From Clostridiaceae bacterium (GTDB lineage: Bacteria; Bacillota; Clostridia; Saccharofermentanales; DTU023), in contig DUPV01000050.1 of the NCBI GenBank assembly GCA_012838135.1, positions 1-46,405 on the forward strand: a DNA stretch of 46,405 nt, in the 5' to 3' direction. The position numbers and the translations under genes are program-made. Every line of letters begins with the position of its first letter. The stretch's first letter is position 1. This document shows, piece after piece, positions 30,800 to 38,869 of the stretch. The notes under the pieces are model-generated. The model did not search any database. It was not told where the DNA came from and was given only the letters and a program-made list of their open reading frames with translations.

Positions 30800-32659
30800 C
30801 TAGATTTTCAAAATTACTTTGAAAGTGCTGCCTTTATCGGGTATGCTTTTGACACTGGCTTCGCCGTCATACAATAAAGCAATATGCTTGACAATCGATA
30901 AACCTAAACCGGTACCGCCCAGTATACGGGAACGGCTTTTATCCACCCGATAAAAACGTTCGAAGACTCTTTTGGCAGATTGCTCATCAAAACCATAACC
31001 ATCGTCCTTGACTTTGATTGTGACAAATCTTCCTTTACGCTTCAAATCAATCCAAATGTTACCTTGCTTGCGATGATATTTAATCGCATTTTCCAATAAA
31101 TTCAATAACACTTGCTTAATGCGATCACGATTAGCTTTAACAGGCAAAAATGTCGGATCATCACTCGGAATCAGATTAATTTGTTTTTCGCTGGCTTGTT
31201 CATCTAATTGAACCAAACATTCATCTAACAATTCAACTAAATCAAAATCTTCTAAATCGGAATCGGTATTTAAGCGTTCAATGTCCGACAGACGCAAAAT
31301 ATCATTGATTAAACGTTCTAATCTGGCAGCTTCAACATCAATTATTTCCAGAAAATTGTTAACCTGTTCAGGTGCGGTATTGTTCCGATTGCGCAAAGTT
31401 TCAACAAAACCGCGAATAGATGTCAACGGTGTTTTTAATTCATGAGTTACATTCGCCACAAAGCTTGAACGCAATTCACGGGCTTCATATTCATATGAAA
31501 CATCATTGAATAAAACAACTACATGATCTACATCAACCGGAGAAATCATAACTTGGAAAGCATTGTAGCGTCCGGTTACCTGCAATTGAAACTCTTTACG
31601 TACAGTTTTGCCATTAGCAAAAACCTTTTGGCAAAGATCATCTAATTTATCTTCATGTGTTAACAGTATAAAAGGATAAGGATTTTCTTCAGGATCAATA
31701 TCCCGATTGAATAAAGTTTTGGCATATTTATTGGCAAAAACGATTTGTAAGTCCTGATTTACCACTACCAATGGCTCCATCAGTGAATTAACCATTGCAT
31801 CAAGCCATGCTCGTCCAGCCTGCATTTCTTTGTAGTCCTGTTCAAAATTTGTTACAGTCAGATTAAAATTTTCGGCAAACTTATGATAATCAGCAAAAGT
31901 GTGGCGATCTTCTTCCATCCTGGCAGACAAATCTCCGGACTGAATCTTTGCCAAAACTCGCTCTAAATCAGCTTGATGTTTATCTTGCTTTTTGAATAGT
32001 AAGCTTAAAATTAAATTGAATGTCAACAATGCTACAACACCAATTACTAAGCTGGAAAGCGTAATTGTCGATCCTGCATTGCCTAAGATATCCATCAATA
32101 CGGCAGCCCTGACAATCATGTTATTGTGACTAGATCTAGCTGAAAAATAGAGGCGCTCAACAGATTCTGTATTTGAAAAACGCACATTAGAGTGGCTCTC
32201 TTCACCTGAAATCACACCCCAGACTTCAGGCCTGGCTCGATGATTATTCAATTTATCACCGGGAAAATTGCTGTCTGCAAGGACTTTACCGGTTTCATCC
32301 ATTACAGTAATTCTTAAGTCCGATGCTAATACATTGAAGGTTTCAAATGTAATACCAATCGTTTGTTCAAGTAACTCTTGGTTAACAAGATTATCTTCAT
32401 GATTGCTTTCTTTTGTAAGTTCCGCCTGACTTTTTTCCTTCGTCCTATCTGCCTCGTCAATTAGTGCAAAATCATCAGTTGAACCCGACTTTTCTATATT
32501 ATGACTTAATGCACGATCAAAAAATGATGTAACATTGGCTAAATAATTCTCGTAACTTTGAATAAGTTTTGATCTTAATTCTCGATAATTCAAAATTGAA
32601 ACTATGCTTATTGCTAAAATGATTACAATATTTCCCAATATTCTTAAGCGTTTTTTCAT
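30800..32659 (-). CDS. phoR: Sensor histidine kinase of phosphate response
   Basis: PhoR phosphorylates PhoP when phosphate is short. A first transmembrane helix is at about 9-24, an outer sensor region at 26-195 with LRITVMDETGKVLADSNFP (a PhoR-type Cache/PAS fold), and a second helix at about 200-222. HAMP follows (to about 275), then a PAS domain at 285-385 (MEPLVVVNQDLQIVFANKYA). The H-box is SSFVANVTHELKTPLTSIRG with the phospho-accepting His406. The ATPase part has NLLENAIKYHRKQGNI, DDGYGFDE and GGTGLGLSIVKHIA. Length of 619 residues is near that of Bacillus PhoR. It is the last gene of the pst-phoU-phoPR operon, 39 bases after phoP. Confidence 0.93.
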   Translation of the reverse strand: MKKRLRILGNIVIILAISIVSILNYRELRSKLIQSYENYLANVTSFFDRALSHNIEKSGSTDDFALIDEADRTKEKSQAELTKESNHEDNLVNQELLEQTIGITFETFNVLASDLRITVMDETGKVLADSNFPGDKLNNHRARPEVWGVISGEESHSNVRFSNTESVERLYFSARSSHNNMIVRAAVLMDILGNAGSTITLSSLVIGVVALLTFNLILSLLFKKQDKHQADLERVLAKIQSGDLSARMEEDRHTFADYHKFAENFNLTVTNFEQDYKEMQAGRAWLDAMVNSLMEPLVVVNQDLQIVFANKYAKTLFNRDIDPEENPYPFILLTHEDKLDDLCQKVFANGKTVRKEFQLQVTGRYNAFQVMISPVDVDHVVVLFNDVSYEYEARELRSSFVANVTHELKTPLTSIRGFVETLRNRNNTAPEQVNNFLEIIDVEAARLERLINDILRLSDIERLNTDSDLEDFDLVELLDECLVQLDEQASEKQINLIPSDDPTFLPVKANRDRIKQVLLNLLENAIKYHRKQGNIWIDLKRKGRFVTIKVKDDGYGFDEQSAKRVFERFYRVDKSRSRILGGTGLGLSIVKHIALLYDGEASVKSIPDKGSTFKVILKI

Positions 32660-32698: not shown

Positions 32699-33499
32699 TT
32701 AACTTTCATTGCTTTCAGCAAAACGATATCCGACACCTCGTACAGTTTGGATATAAATCGGTTTAGAAGAATCGGTCTCGATTTTGCGACGTAATTGACG
32801 AATATGAACATCAACTGTTCTGGTTTCTCCACTATATTCATATCCCCAAACATGATTTAGTAAATCATCTCTGGTAAAAGCCAAGCCGCTATTTTGCATC
32901 AAAAATTTAAGCAATTCATATTCACGATGTGTCATTGCAACTTCAAGATCATTTACATAAACTCGATGTCTGGCATCATCTAAAGTAATCCCACCTATAG
33001 AGATAATATCATCTTCTGCAAACTCAGATTTACCGACAAGTTGATCAGATTTAAAAGTCTTACCTTCACTCAACGCCACCCTTTCCTTGCTCCGATTGAC
33101 CAGAATTTTCACTCTCGCTAATAGCTCTCTCATCCCGAAAGGTTTTGTTAAGAAATCATCCGCACCGACATTAAAACCTTCCAACTTATCTTTTTCTGTT
33201 GAACGTGCAGTTAGAAACAAGAAAGATGACCAGAAATACTTCTGGTTTTTCCTTAGAGCCTGACAAATCTCAAATCCATCTATGCCTGGCAACATAACAT
33301 CCAGAATAAACAAATCGACATTTCTTTTTTCCCGGCTTAATTTTTGAAATAATTCATCGCCTGATTCAACATGTAAAACTTGATAAGATTCACTTTCAAG
33401 GTTATATCGGACTAATTCGGCTATTGATTGATCATCTTCTACAACAACTACAAATGATTGATCACTCACTGCTGCCTCTGCCTTTTTCATTTGATTCAA
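32699..33499 (-). CDS. phoP: Phosphate regulon response regulator
   Basis: An OmpR-family regulator: receiver domain first, with the acidic pair VEDDQ, phospho-accepting Asp67 in FILDVMLPGIDG, TARS and the lysine of DDFLTKPFGMREL. The winged-helix DNA-binding domain follows (THREYELLKFLMQNSGLAFT, VDVHIRQLRRKIE, IQTVRGVGYRF). Length is 266 residues. The first ATG (33499) or the one three codons later (33490) may be used; either lies inside the end of phoU, so translation is coupled. With phoR next to it and a Pho box before pstS, the operon probably controls itself. PhoP of Bacillus binds TT(A/T/C)ACA repeats, as found at 38952-38990. Confidence 0.93.
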   Translation of the reverse strand: MNQMKKAEAAVSDQSFVVVVEDDQSIAELVRYNLESESYQVLHVESGDELFQKLSREKRNVDLFILDVMLPGIDGFEICQALRKNQKYFWSSFLFLTARSTEKDKLEGFNVGADDFLTKPFGMRELLARVKILVNRSKERVALSEGKTFKSDQLVGKSEFAEDDIISIGGITLDDARHRVYVNDLEVAMTHREYELLKFLMQNSGLAFTRDDLLNHVWGYEYSGETRTVDVHIRQLRRKIETDSSKPIYIQTVRGVGYRFAESNES

Positions 33500-34172
33500 C
33501 TTCTTTTCGGATTTCTGAAGATGTTATATACTCACCTTCAATAAAATAGACAATCCATTCTGCAATATTTTTTGCATGATCGCCTATTCGTTCCAAATGC
33601 TTACAAACCAATAACATTTCAACCATCGCCGGAGCACCTTCCGGATCAAGTTTCATTTGACGTACGAGATATTTCTTTAATTTGCCATAGAGCGCATTAA
33701 CACGAATATCCATCATAACTATTTGCTTTGCTTTGTCTAAGTTGCTTTCAACATAGGCATCTAAGACCGCATGAATCATCTTTAATGTATGTTCGGTCAA
33801 TTTTACAACATCATGTGGTACAACAACACTATAATTTTTATCATTCAAAAAGACAACATGTTCCGCAATATCTTCAGCATGATCGGCTACTCTTTCCAAA
33901 TCGGTAACCAGTTTCATATTAGCTGCAATATTACGCAAATCACTGGCAACCGGTTGTTGACGAGCTATTAACAAGATACATTCTTGAGTTATCTTACGTT
34001 CCTGATCATCAATTATATCATCACGATCAATGACTTTTGTTGCTAATTCAACATCATTTTCAGTTAAAGCAAGAACTGCTAAATGAATGGATTCTTCAAC
34101 ATCAGAACCCATACGGATCATGCTTTGATGTAAGTTTTCCAATTCTTTTTGATAATTTATACGTTGAGACAT
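33462..34172 (-). CDS. phoU: Phosphate transport system regulatory protein
   Basis: PhoU links the Pst transporter to PhoR and damps the Pho response when phosphate is plentiful. The 236 residues form two similar three-helix PhoU repeats: MGSDVEESIHLAVLALTE with RDDIIDDQERKITQ, then DIRVNALYGKLKKYLVRQM. Each has a metal-binding E/DxxxD stretch: TDLERVADHAEDIAEH in the first and KHLERIGDHAKNIAEW in the second. I use the ATG at 34172 after AAAGGAAT, not the frame opening seven codons earlier. It lies between pstB (64 bases upstream) and phoP (overlapping), the usual place. Confidence 0.95.
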   Translation of the reverse strand: MSQRINYQKELENLHQSMIRMGSDVEESIHLAVLALTENDVELATKVIDRDDIIDDQERKITQECILLIARQQPVASDLRNIAANMKLVTDLERVADHAEDIAEHVVFLNDKNYSVVVPHDVVKLTEHTLKMIHAVLDAYVESNLDKAKQIVMMDIRVNALYGKLKKYLVRQMKLDPEGAPAMVEMLLVCKHLERIGDHAKNIAEWIVYFIEGEYITSSEIRKEVESNEKGRGSSE

Positions 34173-34236
34173 ATTCTTATTCCTTTCTCCCATTTCAATC
34201 TTAATATAATCAAAATTCTACCAAGTTTTTCAAAAA

Positions 34237-35022
34237 TCAACCAAATTTTCCAGAAATATAATCTTCAGTTCTTTTATCTCTAGGATTATGAAAAACTTTT
34301 TCCGTAACGTCAAATTCGATCATATCTCCCAAAAGGAAAAAAGCAGTCATGTCACTAACACGTGCCGCTTGGCTCATTGAGTGTGTCACAATGATTATTG
34401 TATACGATTCCTTCAACTCAGTAATCAAATCTTCAATTTTATTTGTTGCAATCGGATCAAGGGCTGATGTCGGTTCATCCATCAGAATAACCTCCGGAGT
34501 CAGAGAAATTGCTCGTGCTATACACAGCCTCTGTTGCTGACCGCCGGAAAGCTTGGTCGCATTGCGATTGAGATGATCCTTCACTTCATCCCAAAGTGCA
34601 GCTTGTTTGAGCGAAGTTTCAACCACTTCATCTAAAATTTTGCGATCCCTGACACCTTGACAACGTAGGCCATAAGCAACATTGTCGTATATCGACATCG
34701 GAAATGGGTTGGGTTGTTGAAACACCATTCCAACATCAGTTCTTAATTGAACAACATCAACTTCTTTACTGTGAATTTCAATATCATGATGGTAAATCTC
34801 TCCCTCAGTTCTCACACCTTCAATTAAGTCATTCATACGATTAAAACAACGTAGTAAGGTTGATTTGCCGCAGCCTGAGGGACCAATAAATGCAGTTACT
34901 TTATTCAAAGGAATCTCCATATTGATTTTCTTCAAAGCGTGAAAATCCGTATAGTAAAGATCAAATTCTCTTATATCGAACGCATTGTCATTATCAGTTT
35001 TTACTTGTATTTGTTGTGTCAT
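34237..35022 (-). CDS. pstB: Phosphate ABC transporter ATPase
   Basis: PstB powers high-affinity phosphate uptake through PstA/PstC. Walker A is GPSGCGKST, followed by the family hallmark [12 protein letters not shown]. The Q-loop is [22 protein letters not shown], the signature [15 protein letters not shown], Walker [17 protein letters not shown] and the H-loop VTHSM. Length of 261 residues is normal. AGGAGT precedes the ATG. The 120-base gap after pstA is AT-rich and I saw no terminator in it. Confidence 0.97.
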
Positions 35023-35143: not shown

Positions 35144-36427
35144 TCAAGTTTCAGCTGTAGCTTTTGCTTTTTTATTGTTTTTCTTTTGATCATCTTTATC
35201 TCTTGTCATACGATAAGTAATGTATTTTACACTTACATTCAAAATCAAGACGATAATCAAAATTACAATTGAAATTGCTGAAGCAAGTTCAAAGTTCGGT
35301 TGTTCTCCACTCATAACTGTCCAGATGTGTACTGCTAAGGAAGTACCACGTGAATTCCAAGCAGGATTATCCATGATCGCTGTACCCATAGTAAAAATCA
35401 GAGCTGCCGACTCGCCGATGATCCGACTGATCGACAAAAGTGTTGCACTTAAAATACCCGGCATAGCATTAGGAATGATGATTTTATATATTGTTTGAAA
35501 CTGAGTAGCACCCATTGACAAACTAGCCATTCTATATCCGTCGGGAACATTGATCAAAGCTTCCTCGGTTTGTCTTATAATAACAGGTAAAAGAATAACT
35601 GCTAAGGTTAATGCACCTAACATCGTACTTTGTCCTGTTATACCCATTAAACGAGTAACTTGAAATAACATTGTCATACCCATTAAACCAAAGATAACAC
35701 TCGGAACACCTGACAATAATTCAATCGAAGATCTGATCCAAGCTGTAAGCTTGTTTTTCGGGGCTAATTCATGTAAATAAATTGCAGCAAAAACACCGAT
35801 CGGTAAAGCAATAATCAAGGTTAGGCCAATCAAAAGTAAAGTTGTAATGATAGAACCTTTAAGTCCGCCGCCTTCAGTTTGAGCATAAAAGTCAACTACT
35901 TCCTGAGAATCATTATCCAAGACTGAAACTAATTCTTCAGATGTTTTACCTTGTGTTGCAGTTAAACCGGCAGATTTCTTTTCGCCTTCAAGATTAATAT
36001 AGGATATTTTTTTCAAAAACAAGCCTTCTTCCATACCGAATTTTTCACCTTGTCTGGGTCCTGCAGTAGTGATTTTTCCATCTTGTAAAGGTGATTCAGG
36101 ATCGAGAAAAACAACTTCCATCTGTGATTCTTTTGCCGCATTAATGCTGTCTACAAAGGCCACACCGTATTTTTCCGAAAAGAAGGCATCCTCAGGGAGT
36201 GTATCAGGAGCTGTGAAAGCACCATGTTCATCCCAATCGATATGGTCATAACCAGCCATCAGATTTTCTGAATTATAATTATTTTTCAACAAATCCCAGT
36301 TTAAAGTAGACCAGCCACGTTTAAAAATAAACACGAATATCGCAATCAGCACAAGAGCGGAAATACCAGATGACAGCCAGGTAAAGCCTTCAGCTATTCT
36401 ATCTTTTATTATTCTTATTCTATTCAT
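35144..36427 (-). CDS. pstA: Phosphate ABC transporter permease with a long extracytoplasmic insert
   Basis: PstA and PstC form the channel for phosphate. The C-terminal 240 residues are a standard PstA core: GSIITTLLLIGLTLIIALPIGVFAAIYLHELA, a PSVIFGLMG stretch, the EAA loop (PDGYRMASLSMGATQFQTI then IIIPNAMPGILSA), and SRIIGESAAL. At 427 residues it is well above the usual 280-300. The extra sequence lies between the first helix (about 18-36) and the second (about 195), a roughly 150-residue acidic domain including DHIDWDEHGAFTAPDTLPED. It should be outside the membrane, near PstS. The C-terminus is Lys-rich. The frame is intact, so the insert is real. Its role is unknown. Confidence 0.92.
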   Translation of the reverse strand: MNRIRIIKDRIAEGFTWLSSGISALVLIAIFVFIFKRGWSTLNWDLLKNNYNSENLMAGYDHIDWDEHGAFTAPDTLPEDAFFSEKYGVAFVDSINAAKESQMEVVFLDPESPLQDGKITTAGPRQGEKFGMEEGLFLKKISYINLEGEKKSAGLTATQGKTSEELVSVLDNDSQEVVDFYAQTEGGGLKGSIITTLLLIGLTLIIALPIGVFAAIYLHELAPKNKLTAWIRSSIELLSGVPSVIFGLMGMTMLFQVTRLMGITGQSTMLGALTLAVILLPVIIRQTEEALINVPDGYRMASLSMGATQFQTIYKIIIPNAMPGILSATLLSISRIIGESAALIFTMGTAIMDNPAWNSRGTSLAVHIWTVMSGEQPNFELASAISIVILIIVLILNVSVKYITYRMTRDKDDQKKNNKKAKATAET

Positions 36428-36548: not shown

Positions 36549-37508
36549 CTAATCTCCCGACTCCATTTTTTTACGTAATGCATTAATCGCTAAGTTGGTG
36601 ATCAGAATAATGATCATTAAAACAATACCGACCGAGAAACGTACGTCATAATCGACACCTACAGTTTCATGTAAGCCTGATAACATTGTTGTGGTTAATG
36701 TTCTGGTTAAATCAAACGGATTCCAAGTCGGACCAACGAAAGCATTACCGGCAACCATTGAAACAGCTGTCGCTTCACCGAATGCTCTGCCTAACCCCAG
36801 GATTAGTCCGGCAAATATACCTGATTTCGCAGATGAAAGTACAACCTTAAAGTTGGTTTGTGTTCTGGAAGCACCAAGTGCTAAAGAACCAAGCTCATGA
36901 CTTTCCGGAACTGCACGAATTGCAACCACTGCCATCGAAGTAATGGTCGGATAAATCATTATTGCCAATAAAAGAATAACTGCCAACATCGAGTTACCGC
37001 CAAAGGTAGTATAGTTAAACCAACCTGCTATTTTTTCAACAATGTCGGTAATAGCACCTGAGGCAAAAACACCGTAAACAACTGATGGAATTGCCGCCAG
37101 TAATTCAACAACCGTAGTTAAAGCATTACTTAATCTTTTCGGAGCAATTTTCACAATCATTAAAGCTGACAATACAGATAAGGGGAAAGCAATTAATCCG
37201 GCAAAAAAAGCCGTGATAATCGTATTAATTACGATGAATAATACGCCGTAAACACCTTGATCACTACGCCATCTCATACCCGTCAGGAACTCTCCCAATG
37301 AAACGGGATTTTCATAGCCCGGTAAGAAAACCTGAATACCACGCGCGGCTACGAAGAAAACAATCAGAATAATCATCAATGCAGCAATCAATCCGCATAA
37401 GCGGAAAATAAATTGCATAGTACGATCGACAGACTTGTAAAGAGAACGGCGCTTTGCAGACCGTTCTCTTATTAAAGTTTTACTTTTATTTTGTTGTTCA
37501 GTAGTCAT
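36549..37508 (-). CDS. pstC: Phosphate ABC transporter permease
   Basis: PstC is the other membrane half of the transporter. The 319 residues include six helices, with LCGLIAALMIILIVFFVAARG first and the PstC signature GIQVFLPGYENPVSLGEFL behind it. Also visible are VELLAAIPSVVYGVFA, TSMAVVAIRAVPESHELGS, the EAA loop ALGASRTQTNFKVVL and GLGRAFGEATAVSMVAG. The N-terminus is basic (RERSAKRRSLYK). It lies between pstS, with two hairpins in the 126-base gap, and pstA. Lower expression than pstS is expected because of those hairpins. Confidence 0.95.
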   Translation of the reverse strand: MTTEQQNKSKTLIRERSAKRRSLYKSVDRTMQFIFRLCGLIAALMIILIVFFVAARGIQVFLPGYENPVSLGEFLTGMRWRSDQGVYGVLFIVINTIITAFFAGLIAFPLSVLSALMIVKIAPKRLSNALTTVVELLAAIPSVVYGVFASGAITDIVEKIAGWFNYTTFGGNSMLAVILLLAIMIYPTITSMAVVAIRAVPESHELGSLALGASRTQTNFKVVLSSAKSGIFAGLILGLGRAFGEATAVSMVAGNAFVGPTWNPFDLTRTLTTTMLSGLHETVGVDYDVRFSVGIVLMIIILITNLAINALRKKMESGD

Positions 37509-37530
37509 AGAAACTCTCTTTTATTCTGCT

Positions 37531-37596
37531 GTTTCAGTAGTTAGAAGAAACTACTGAAACATATTTTAATTTTATTGTTTCAGTAATTACCGAAAC
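37531..37596 (-). terminator. Two tandem hairpins between pstS and pstC
   Basis: GTTTCAGTAGTT (37531-37542) pairs perfectly with AACTACTGAAAC (37549-37560) over 12 bp. A second, related palindrome GTTTCAGTAATTACCGAAAC occupies 37577-37596. The first is followed on the minus strand by AGCAGAATAAAAG, not a strong U-run. They probably stabilise the pstS mRNA 3' end or cut read-through, giving excess binding protein over permease. Confidence 0.6.
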
Positions 37597-37634: not shown

Positions 37635-38735
37635 TTATTTAGCAATATCTTCCCAATTGGCAGCTGCACCTGTGAAGATATCAAATAGATTTTGTTTTGT
37701 GAAGTTTTTCACCGGATTATTCTTTTCAACAACTACTACGATAGCATCGTCACAATATTTATCTGCACTGATGGCATCTTTTGTTGGCTCTTCATCTTTG
37801 AATTTACGTGAAGCAAATCCGATATCTGAAGCGTTAGGACCGTCTTTGTCACCGCCTAATGTACGTTTCCAGCCGTCACCTGAACCTGTTTGGTTTACAA
37901 CCATATCAAAGTTACCTGCTAAAGGTTGGAATGCTTCCAAAGCAGCTTTCAATGATTTTTCAACTGATGTTGAACCACCGGTTGTAATAGTGAGGCCTGA
38001 ATTATCTTGATCAACGATCGGATGATCAGCTTTGAGTTCATCCCATGATTTGCTGTCTTCTACATCAACGATTCCGCCGGCACTCAAAACAGCTTCTTTA
38101 CCTTCGGTTGATTCAGTCAAGAATACGATGAAAGCTTTAACTAATTGTTCTAATTCGTCACTTTCGTAGTCACCTGCAGCACGTGTTGTATAGCAGAAAG
38201 GACGGCTTAAAAGATAAGAACCGTCAATTACGGTTTCAACTGAAGGTTCTACGCCTTCATAATTTGCCGGTTGCAGGTTATTGGCTGCAAAGTCAGTTGT
38301 TAATGAAACATAACCAATACCTTGAACGTCATCGCCAACTTTGGTTGCCATATCACCGTTTGAGGAAACTTCATTAGCATTATCGGTTAATTGATCTTTG
38401 AAACCAACAACACTTTCAAAACCTTCACGAGTTCCTGATGCGGCATCACGAGTATAAACATTAATTTGTCCGGTCATTTTGCCACCGTCAGCTGCAGTTT
38501 CTTTTACTTCAACCTCTTTTTCTGTTTCTTTTTCAGTCTCTTTTTTTGTTTCTTTTTCAGTCTCTTTTTTTGTTTCTTTTTCTGTTTCTTTCTCAGTTTT
38601 TTCTTCTTTTTTTACTTCTTCTTTAGTTTCTTTTTCTTCTTTTTCATCTTTTTTGTCGCCACCACATGCGGTTACAACTGAAATCATCATAACTAAAGCG
38701 AGCATAAGAACTAAGATTTTCTTTAAATTTTTCAC
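37635..38735 (-). CDS. pstS: Phosphate-binding lipoprotein PstS, apparently circularly permuted
   Basis: A signal with lipobox precedes Cys24 (VMMISVVTACGGDKK), so it is a surface lipoprotein that feeds phosphate to PstCA. A Lys/Glu/Thr repeat linker follows. The folded part starts with the half that normally comes second: INVYTRDAASGTREGFESV, then GVEPSVETVIDGSYLLSRPF and KAFIVFLTESTEGKEAV. The half that normally comes first follows: ITTGGSTSVEKSLKAALEAF, ASDIGFASRKFKDEE and NLFDIFTGAAANWEDIAK, which ends the protein. Canonical PstS runs IF.G.I.NW directly into REAGSGTR, exactly where this protein has its two ends. I use the GTG at 38735, eight bases after GGAGG, and not the longer frame. 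Length is 366 residues. The phosphate-contact motifs (GSTS, SGTR) are kept. Confidence 0.88.
   Translation of the reverse strand: MKNLKKILVLMLALVMMISVVTACGGDKKDEKEEKETKEEVKKEEKTEKETEKETKKETEKETKKETEKETEKEVEVKETAADGGKMTGQINVYTRDAASGTREGFESVVGFKDQLTDNANEVSSNGDMATKVGDDVQGIGYVSLTTDFAANNLQPANYEGVEPSVETVIDGSYLLSRPFCYTTRAAGDYESDELEQLVKAFIVFLTESTEGKEAVLSAGGIVDVEDSKSWDELKADHPIVDQDNSGLTITTGGSTSVEKSLKAALEAFQPLAGNFDMVVNQTGSGDGWKRTLGGDKDGPNASDIGFASRKFKDEEPTKDAISADKYCDDAIVVVVEKNNPVKNFTKQNLFDIFTGAAANWEDIAK
38515..38600 (-). repeat. Degenerate 24-bp repeat coding for the KETEKET linker of PstS
   Basis: On the plus strand CAGTCTCTTTTTTTGTTTCT plus TTTT recurs with a 24-base period (for example from 38534 and 38558), with partial copies to either side. 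It encodes KETEKETK-like units of the charged linker between the lipid anchor and the binding domain. Copy-number change would keep the frame. Confidence 0.8.
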
Positions 38736-38869
38736 TTTTCTACCTCCAGATAGTATATTGATTAACTTTTTTGTTAGATAATAAGTAATGTTCATTAATA
38801 CTGTTTGTACTTTGTAACTTACTCATTATCACTGCAAAATGTTTTTTAAGTTATAGAAGACTGAAAAAA

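Follow-up and report, generated by a model that had tools for sequence, protein, structure and literature searches.

The gene at the head of a complete pst operon (pstS-C-A-B-phoU) in the 46,405-nucleotide stretch of DNA analyzed here (hereafter the window) encodes a PstS whose two halves stand in reversed order along the chain. PstS is a textbook binding protein, and comparison of sequence, profiles and fold supports the assignment of the window protein as a natural circular permutant of it; we consider it very probable that the gene is such a permutant and that its product serves a working Pst importer as the phosphate-binding lipoprotein. Relatives with the same order form two groups: clade A, comprising the window PstS with its relatives from Erysipelotrichia and Clostridia, and clade B, whose members resemble Streptococcus pneumoniae PstS2 (SP_2084, PDB ID: 4H1X). 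The breadth of this distribution, the existence of intermediates and the pairing with an unusual PstA give the arrangement an interest beyond that of one odd gene. The coordinates of the gene, its parts and its operon are collected in Table 1.

Table 1. Position of the permuted pstS, its parts and the neighboring operon genes in the window
Feature	Coordinates	Strand	Remarks
pstS, circularly permuted, predicted phosphate-binding lipoprotein	37635..38735	-	366 aa counted from GTG (at 38735); stop at 37635-37637; profile and phmmer matches
Ribosome-binding site GGAGGT	38742..38747	-	6 nt 5' of GTG; read from sequence
Lipoprotein signal peptide	38664..38735	-	ends in lipobox V-T-A-C; Cys codon 38664-38666; read from sequence
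Lys/Glu/Thr-rich low-complexity tether	38469..38663	-	separates lipid anchor from folded part
Ordinary C-terminal PstS half, here first	38058..38468	-	most of lobe II, second crossing strand, lobe I end helices; RDAASGTR inside
Crossing strand LSRPFCYT, intact	38184..38207	-	model residues 92-99; AlphaFold2 secondary structure
New bridge, old C-terminus to old N-terminus	37998..38057	-	conserved within clade A
Ordinary N-terminal PstS half, here last	37638..37997	-	lobe I, first crossing strand, first lobe II helix; GSTSV, GSGDG, DIGFASR
Crossing strand DDAIVVVVEKNNPV, intact	37725..37766	-	model residues 239-252; AlphaFold2 secondary structure; compare PhoX hinge strand
Inverted repeat, 13 pairs, in pstS-pstC gap	37530..37561		
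pstC, permease	36549..37508	-	PF00528
pstA, permease with insert	35144..36427	-	427 aa; PF00528 at residues 208-407
PstA extra domain, TM1 to permease core	35867..36310	-	about 110-130 residues; found only with clade-A PstS
pstB, ATPase	34237..35022	-	PF00005
phoU, regulator	33462..34193	-	PF01895, two repeats
Response regulator	32699..33499	-	after phoU
Histidine kinase	30800..32659	-	after response regulator

Order of the halves and position of the cut

When the window PstS is compared with the Pfam profile PBP_like_2 (PF12849, E = 5.5e-24, both profile halves), the match falls into two pieces, with profile positions 130-264 lying upstream of positions 11-126. The NCBIfam model TIGR02136 likewise matches in two pieces that together cover both of its halves (E = 6.7e-39, 133.8 bits), and a phmmer comparison with Clostridium perfringens PstS (4q8r) aligns residues 110-236 of the query with residues 119-237 of the chain and residues 269-384 with residues 5-113. 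Restoring the usual order in silico raised the scores from 138.7 to 151.9 bits for TIGR02136 and from 87.7 to 101.8 bits for PF12849, each match now running as one stretch. The original prediction, that the halves of PstS had been swapped, is borne out by these reversed matches and by the gain in score on re-joining. Its placement of the new ends at the connection NW...-REAGSGTR of ordinary PstS was likewise accurate: the ends lie between ...NWEDI, just past which the chain terminates, and the strand leading into RDAASGTR.

Both the native sequence (133.8 bits) and the re-joined one (151.9 bits) score below the curated TIGR02136 cut-off of 206.6 bits. Because the usual N-to-C order is reversed, we regard the window PstS as a permuted relative rather than as an ordinary member of TIGR02136 or PF12849, and the scoring of the permuted form below the curated cut-off explains why many pst operons seemingly lack a named pstS. 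Since the identical half order is found in dozens of independent genomes, an assembly accident is ruled out. The lipobox pattern is present in most relatives. In a profile search the window gene was the sole PBP_like_2 gene of its genome, which is a draft of 94% completeness, so that a second PstS might be missed.

An AlphaFold2 model of the window PstS, built from an alignment (A1) of 19 relatives, reached a pLDDT of 93.1 and a pTM of 0.88. The top match in a Foldseek search of the PDB was 4H1X, which aligns over its full length and collinearly (E = 1.7e-23, TM 0.77/0.83), as it also does by phmmer; the entry dates from 2012, so the PDB has contained the arrangement since then. The ordinary structures 4gd5 and 1twy fit the model closely over just 87-95 columns (rmsd 1.2-2.1), a forced full alignment with ordinary 4q8r gave an rmsd of 10.8, and the next-best matches were OpuAC proteins at a TM of about 0.47. 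Structure prediction, a check that had been proposed along with the permutation, thus yields a close fit to ordinary PstS half by half and a full fit to permuted 4H1X, and by this half-wise comparison the predicted fold is that of ordinary PstS with a different chain start.

The structural reason originally offered for the break point, that the cut falls where strands cross between the lobes, has to be corrected. We take LSRPFCYT to be a crossing strand on the basis of the type II binding-protein topology; in the model this strand (residues 92-99) and its partner (239-252) are both uncut, and the cut lies in a lobe II loop flanked by the last helix (262-270) and the first strand (7-11). For PhoX, an ordinary protein, a hinge strand at 93-108, a domain II spanning 101-251 and a conserved Arg 159 have been described (PMC5439949), a numbering that puts the site equivalent to the cut inside domain II, well past the hinge. 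In the rearranged chain the new bridge links the two old termini, which come together in lobe I, and new termini were opened in the lobe II loop, so that the lipid tether departs from lobe II and not from lobe I. Permuted PstS offers a natural test of how the order of the chain and the place of its tether affect closing and docking.

Relatives and origin of the permuted order

Half-profile searches, also suggested by the original prediction, uncovered about 100 distinct sampled genes sharing the order: on the fetched loci we distinguished 53 proteins of clade A, 48 of clade B and 51 of ordinary order. The order is not peculiar to the window PstS: PstS2 of S. pneumoniae and a large proportion of Clostridia have it as well. 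Clade A includes members from the genus and family of the window genome, other Clostridia, Helcococcus and many Erysipelotrichaceae. From a class sample of 292 genomes, 41 (the window's own counted) matched collinearly over the full length and a further 14 across the junction, six of the latter being checked; about ten of 299 genomes in a phylum sample have the permuted order. Clade-B genes also occur on a plasmid of Treponema saccharophilum and a plasmid of Monoglobus, directly 5' of pstC-A-B-phoU, where public annotation names them merely 'substrate-binding domain-containing protein' (L156 and L157). No relative was found on viral contigs. At one locus (L033:4491-6593), two permuted pstS genes are adjacent within one operon.

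The order probably came about when pstS was duplicated in frame and in tandem, giving N-C-N-C, and the outer halves were then lost. Intermediates with a duplicated half, which had been proposed as something to look for, do exist and fit a route of duplication, fusion and trimming. One locus (L186:1350-2981) carries a fused N-C-N-C gene of 544 aa, made of two ordinary PstS units that are 74% identical and lying directly 5' of Pst permeases; a second genome of the same family (G630) has N-C-N-C in a 531-aa frame; and genome G052 (L032:4696-7665) encodes a 990-aa lipoprotein of order C-N-C-N-C-N, with units 92-96% identical, also directly 5' of pst permeases. Clade A does not descend directly from the N-C-N-C genes; these and the C-N-C-N-C-N gene are living examples for a circular permutation that proceeds by duplicating and trimming.

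The three permuted units in the single frame of G052 could be taken as a sign that a tandem array (C-N-C-N...) was cut short or wrongly assembled and that the order is not that of a finished single unit. Contigs do end within clade-A pstS in five genomes (G009, G010, G016, G021 and G044; L246-L251), and in G010 two contig-end pieces overlap at model positions 133-216, the pattern expected of tandem units. Such an explanation is nevertheless extremely improbable: the window gene runs intact from its start codon through a signal peptide to a stop and has the operon downstream of it, and single units are present in dozens of relatives.

A finished single unit may have arisen once or, separately in clades A and B and at the same loop, twice. 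Trees built from PstS halves aligned separately place the two clades apart, each with support of 100/99 or 100/100 in the largest tree, and need two changes; none of the bootstrap trees joins A and B, and the bridges between the half profiles have disjoint length ranges (22-28 aa in clade A vs 15-18 aa in clade B). Against this, holding A and B together costs just 1.4-5.3 log units (AU p 0.38-0.46), so that one clade is not rejected, and the break point is equal in the two clades to within a few residues. Neither history can be called proven, as the trees split A from B and the AU test is compatible with one clade; we put two separate origins at slightly below an even chance.

Phosphate import and the PstA insert

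A Pst permease lies directly downstream in 118 of 120 C-N loci with enough 3' sequence, a count in which some loci were fetched twice; the remaining two are a single tandem copy, seen twice. We take the phosphate contacts of E. coli PstS to be T10, S38, D56, R135, S139, G140 and T141. Every one of the 102 permuted units compared from clades A and B has the equivalents of T10 (T or S), S38, R135, S139, G140 and T141, and the D56 equivalent is Ser in the window PstS, as in most ordinary sequences of the set; a list of phosphate-contact residues is also available for PhoX (PMC5439949). We infer phosphate binding by the window PstS itself. The protein would be exported, lipidated and tethered through its charged linker, would use the usual hinge motion to close its two lobes on phosphate, since both crossing strands are uncut, and would hand the phosphate to PstC/PstA.

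The permuted order is compatible with function elsewhere: in encapsulated S. pneumoniae D39 either Pst1 or Pst2 is required and sufficient, and Pst2 sustains growth upon deletion of Pst1 (PMC4913102). PstS2 of this functional Pst2 has the permuted order and belongs to clade B, at about 26% identity to the window PstS (Foldseek). In some genomes no PstS other than a permuted one was found, and in a pathogen a permuted PstS works in the second importer. The long stem branch of clade A (1.1-1.3 changes per column) and the extra domain in its PstA make specialisation possible, and the permuted protein might now bind another ligand (another oxyanion or a phosphate ester) or act mainly as a sensor. 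We consider this improbable, as pstC/A always adjoins, joined in the window by pstB-phoU, the response regulator and the kinase, every phosphate-contact residue is retained, and no other PstS was found in the window genome.

The gap between pstS and pstC holds a strong inverted repeat, and a similar TTTCAGTA motif recurs just upstream of it. The repeat could be an attenuator or a processing site, and permease expression may be lowered relative to pstS.

The PstA adjoining clade-A PstS is about 400-430 aa long. Its permease core starts at residue 174-197 in 65 of 65 complete clade-A-linked PstA (51 distinct sequences), compared with residue 55-74 in ten ordinary operons, 76 in E. coli and, two reading-frame artefacts aside, 51-77 in clade-B PstA. 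The apparent 519-aa PstA at L157 is a stop-to-stop artefact (the annotated pstA is 867 bp), and L214 is a start miscall. The insert is present in 27 of 59 related genomes. In 26 of them it is accompanied by a clade-A PstS, whole or as a piece at a contig end, and in the other (G015) by a weak fragment only, and no clade-A PstS was found in the insert-free genomes among these 59; because the genomes share ancestry, these counts are not independent events. In the phylum-wide sample the insert was found in the window genome alone, which is what a restriction to clade-A operons would predict. The pairing of the insert with clade-A PstS, and its absence from clade-B and ordinary operons, is new in this analysis, and so strict a pairing offers an example in which co-adaptation of a binding protein with its channel can be tested.

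Its position after TM1 indicates that the insert probably lies outside the membrane (extracytoplasmic). The structure model has a confident fold (pLDDT 89), and most of the top 16 PDB matches in a fold search are named PDZ, all at E 0.2 or worse; no Pfam match was found, and profile-profile comparison with 11 PDZ domains gave no significant match. The pattern and the fold ranking suggest that the insert is possibly PDZ-like, a likeness significant in no test. We also raise, as a rather speculative and on present evidence unlikely idea, that clade A is a distinct type of Pst importer, in which the move of the PstS termini to lobe II went along with an extracytoplasmic PstA domain whose role is to keep or position at the channel the tethered PstS, or else the tether or the C-terminus of PstS.

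Comparison with known systems

Other binding proteins are known to be circularly permuted (PMC4990184, PMC2395249), and 4H1X is a structure that has the half order of the window PstS. As the original prediction supposed, the arrangement appears not to have been described as a circular permutation of PstS: a search of open-licence papers, beside which an older account in a subscription journal is possible, returned no description of it and no mention of 4H1X. A virome paper in which permutation and PstS occur together is unrelated to a permutation of PstS.

The closest known counterpart, 4H1X, shares with the window PstS the half order along the whole chain, the break point and the type of operon, but it belongs to clade B, has a shorter bridge and low identity, and clade-B operons have a PstA of normal length. 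Ordinary PstS (E. coli; C. perfringens 4GD5/4Q8R; V. cholerae 1TWY) has both halves, the phosphate contacts and the operon in common with the window protein, whereas its halves are in the opposite order, its tether is at lobe I and its PstA lacks the insert. Among permutants of other families, the OpuAC glycine-betaine-binding proteins belong to a described circular-permutation family (PMC2395249) and have a different ligand and low sequence identity to the window PstS. MglB-2 of Treponema pallidum (TpMglB-2; type Ic, cluster Bc) is a natural circular permutant with two lobes and a lipid tether, for which ligand binding has been shown (PMC4990184); it differs from the window PstS in being a type I sugar-binding protein, cut elsewhere and with a fourth crossing added.
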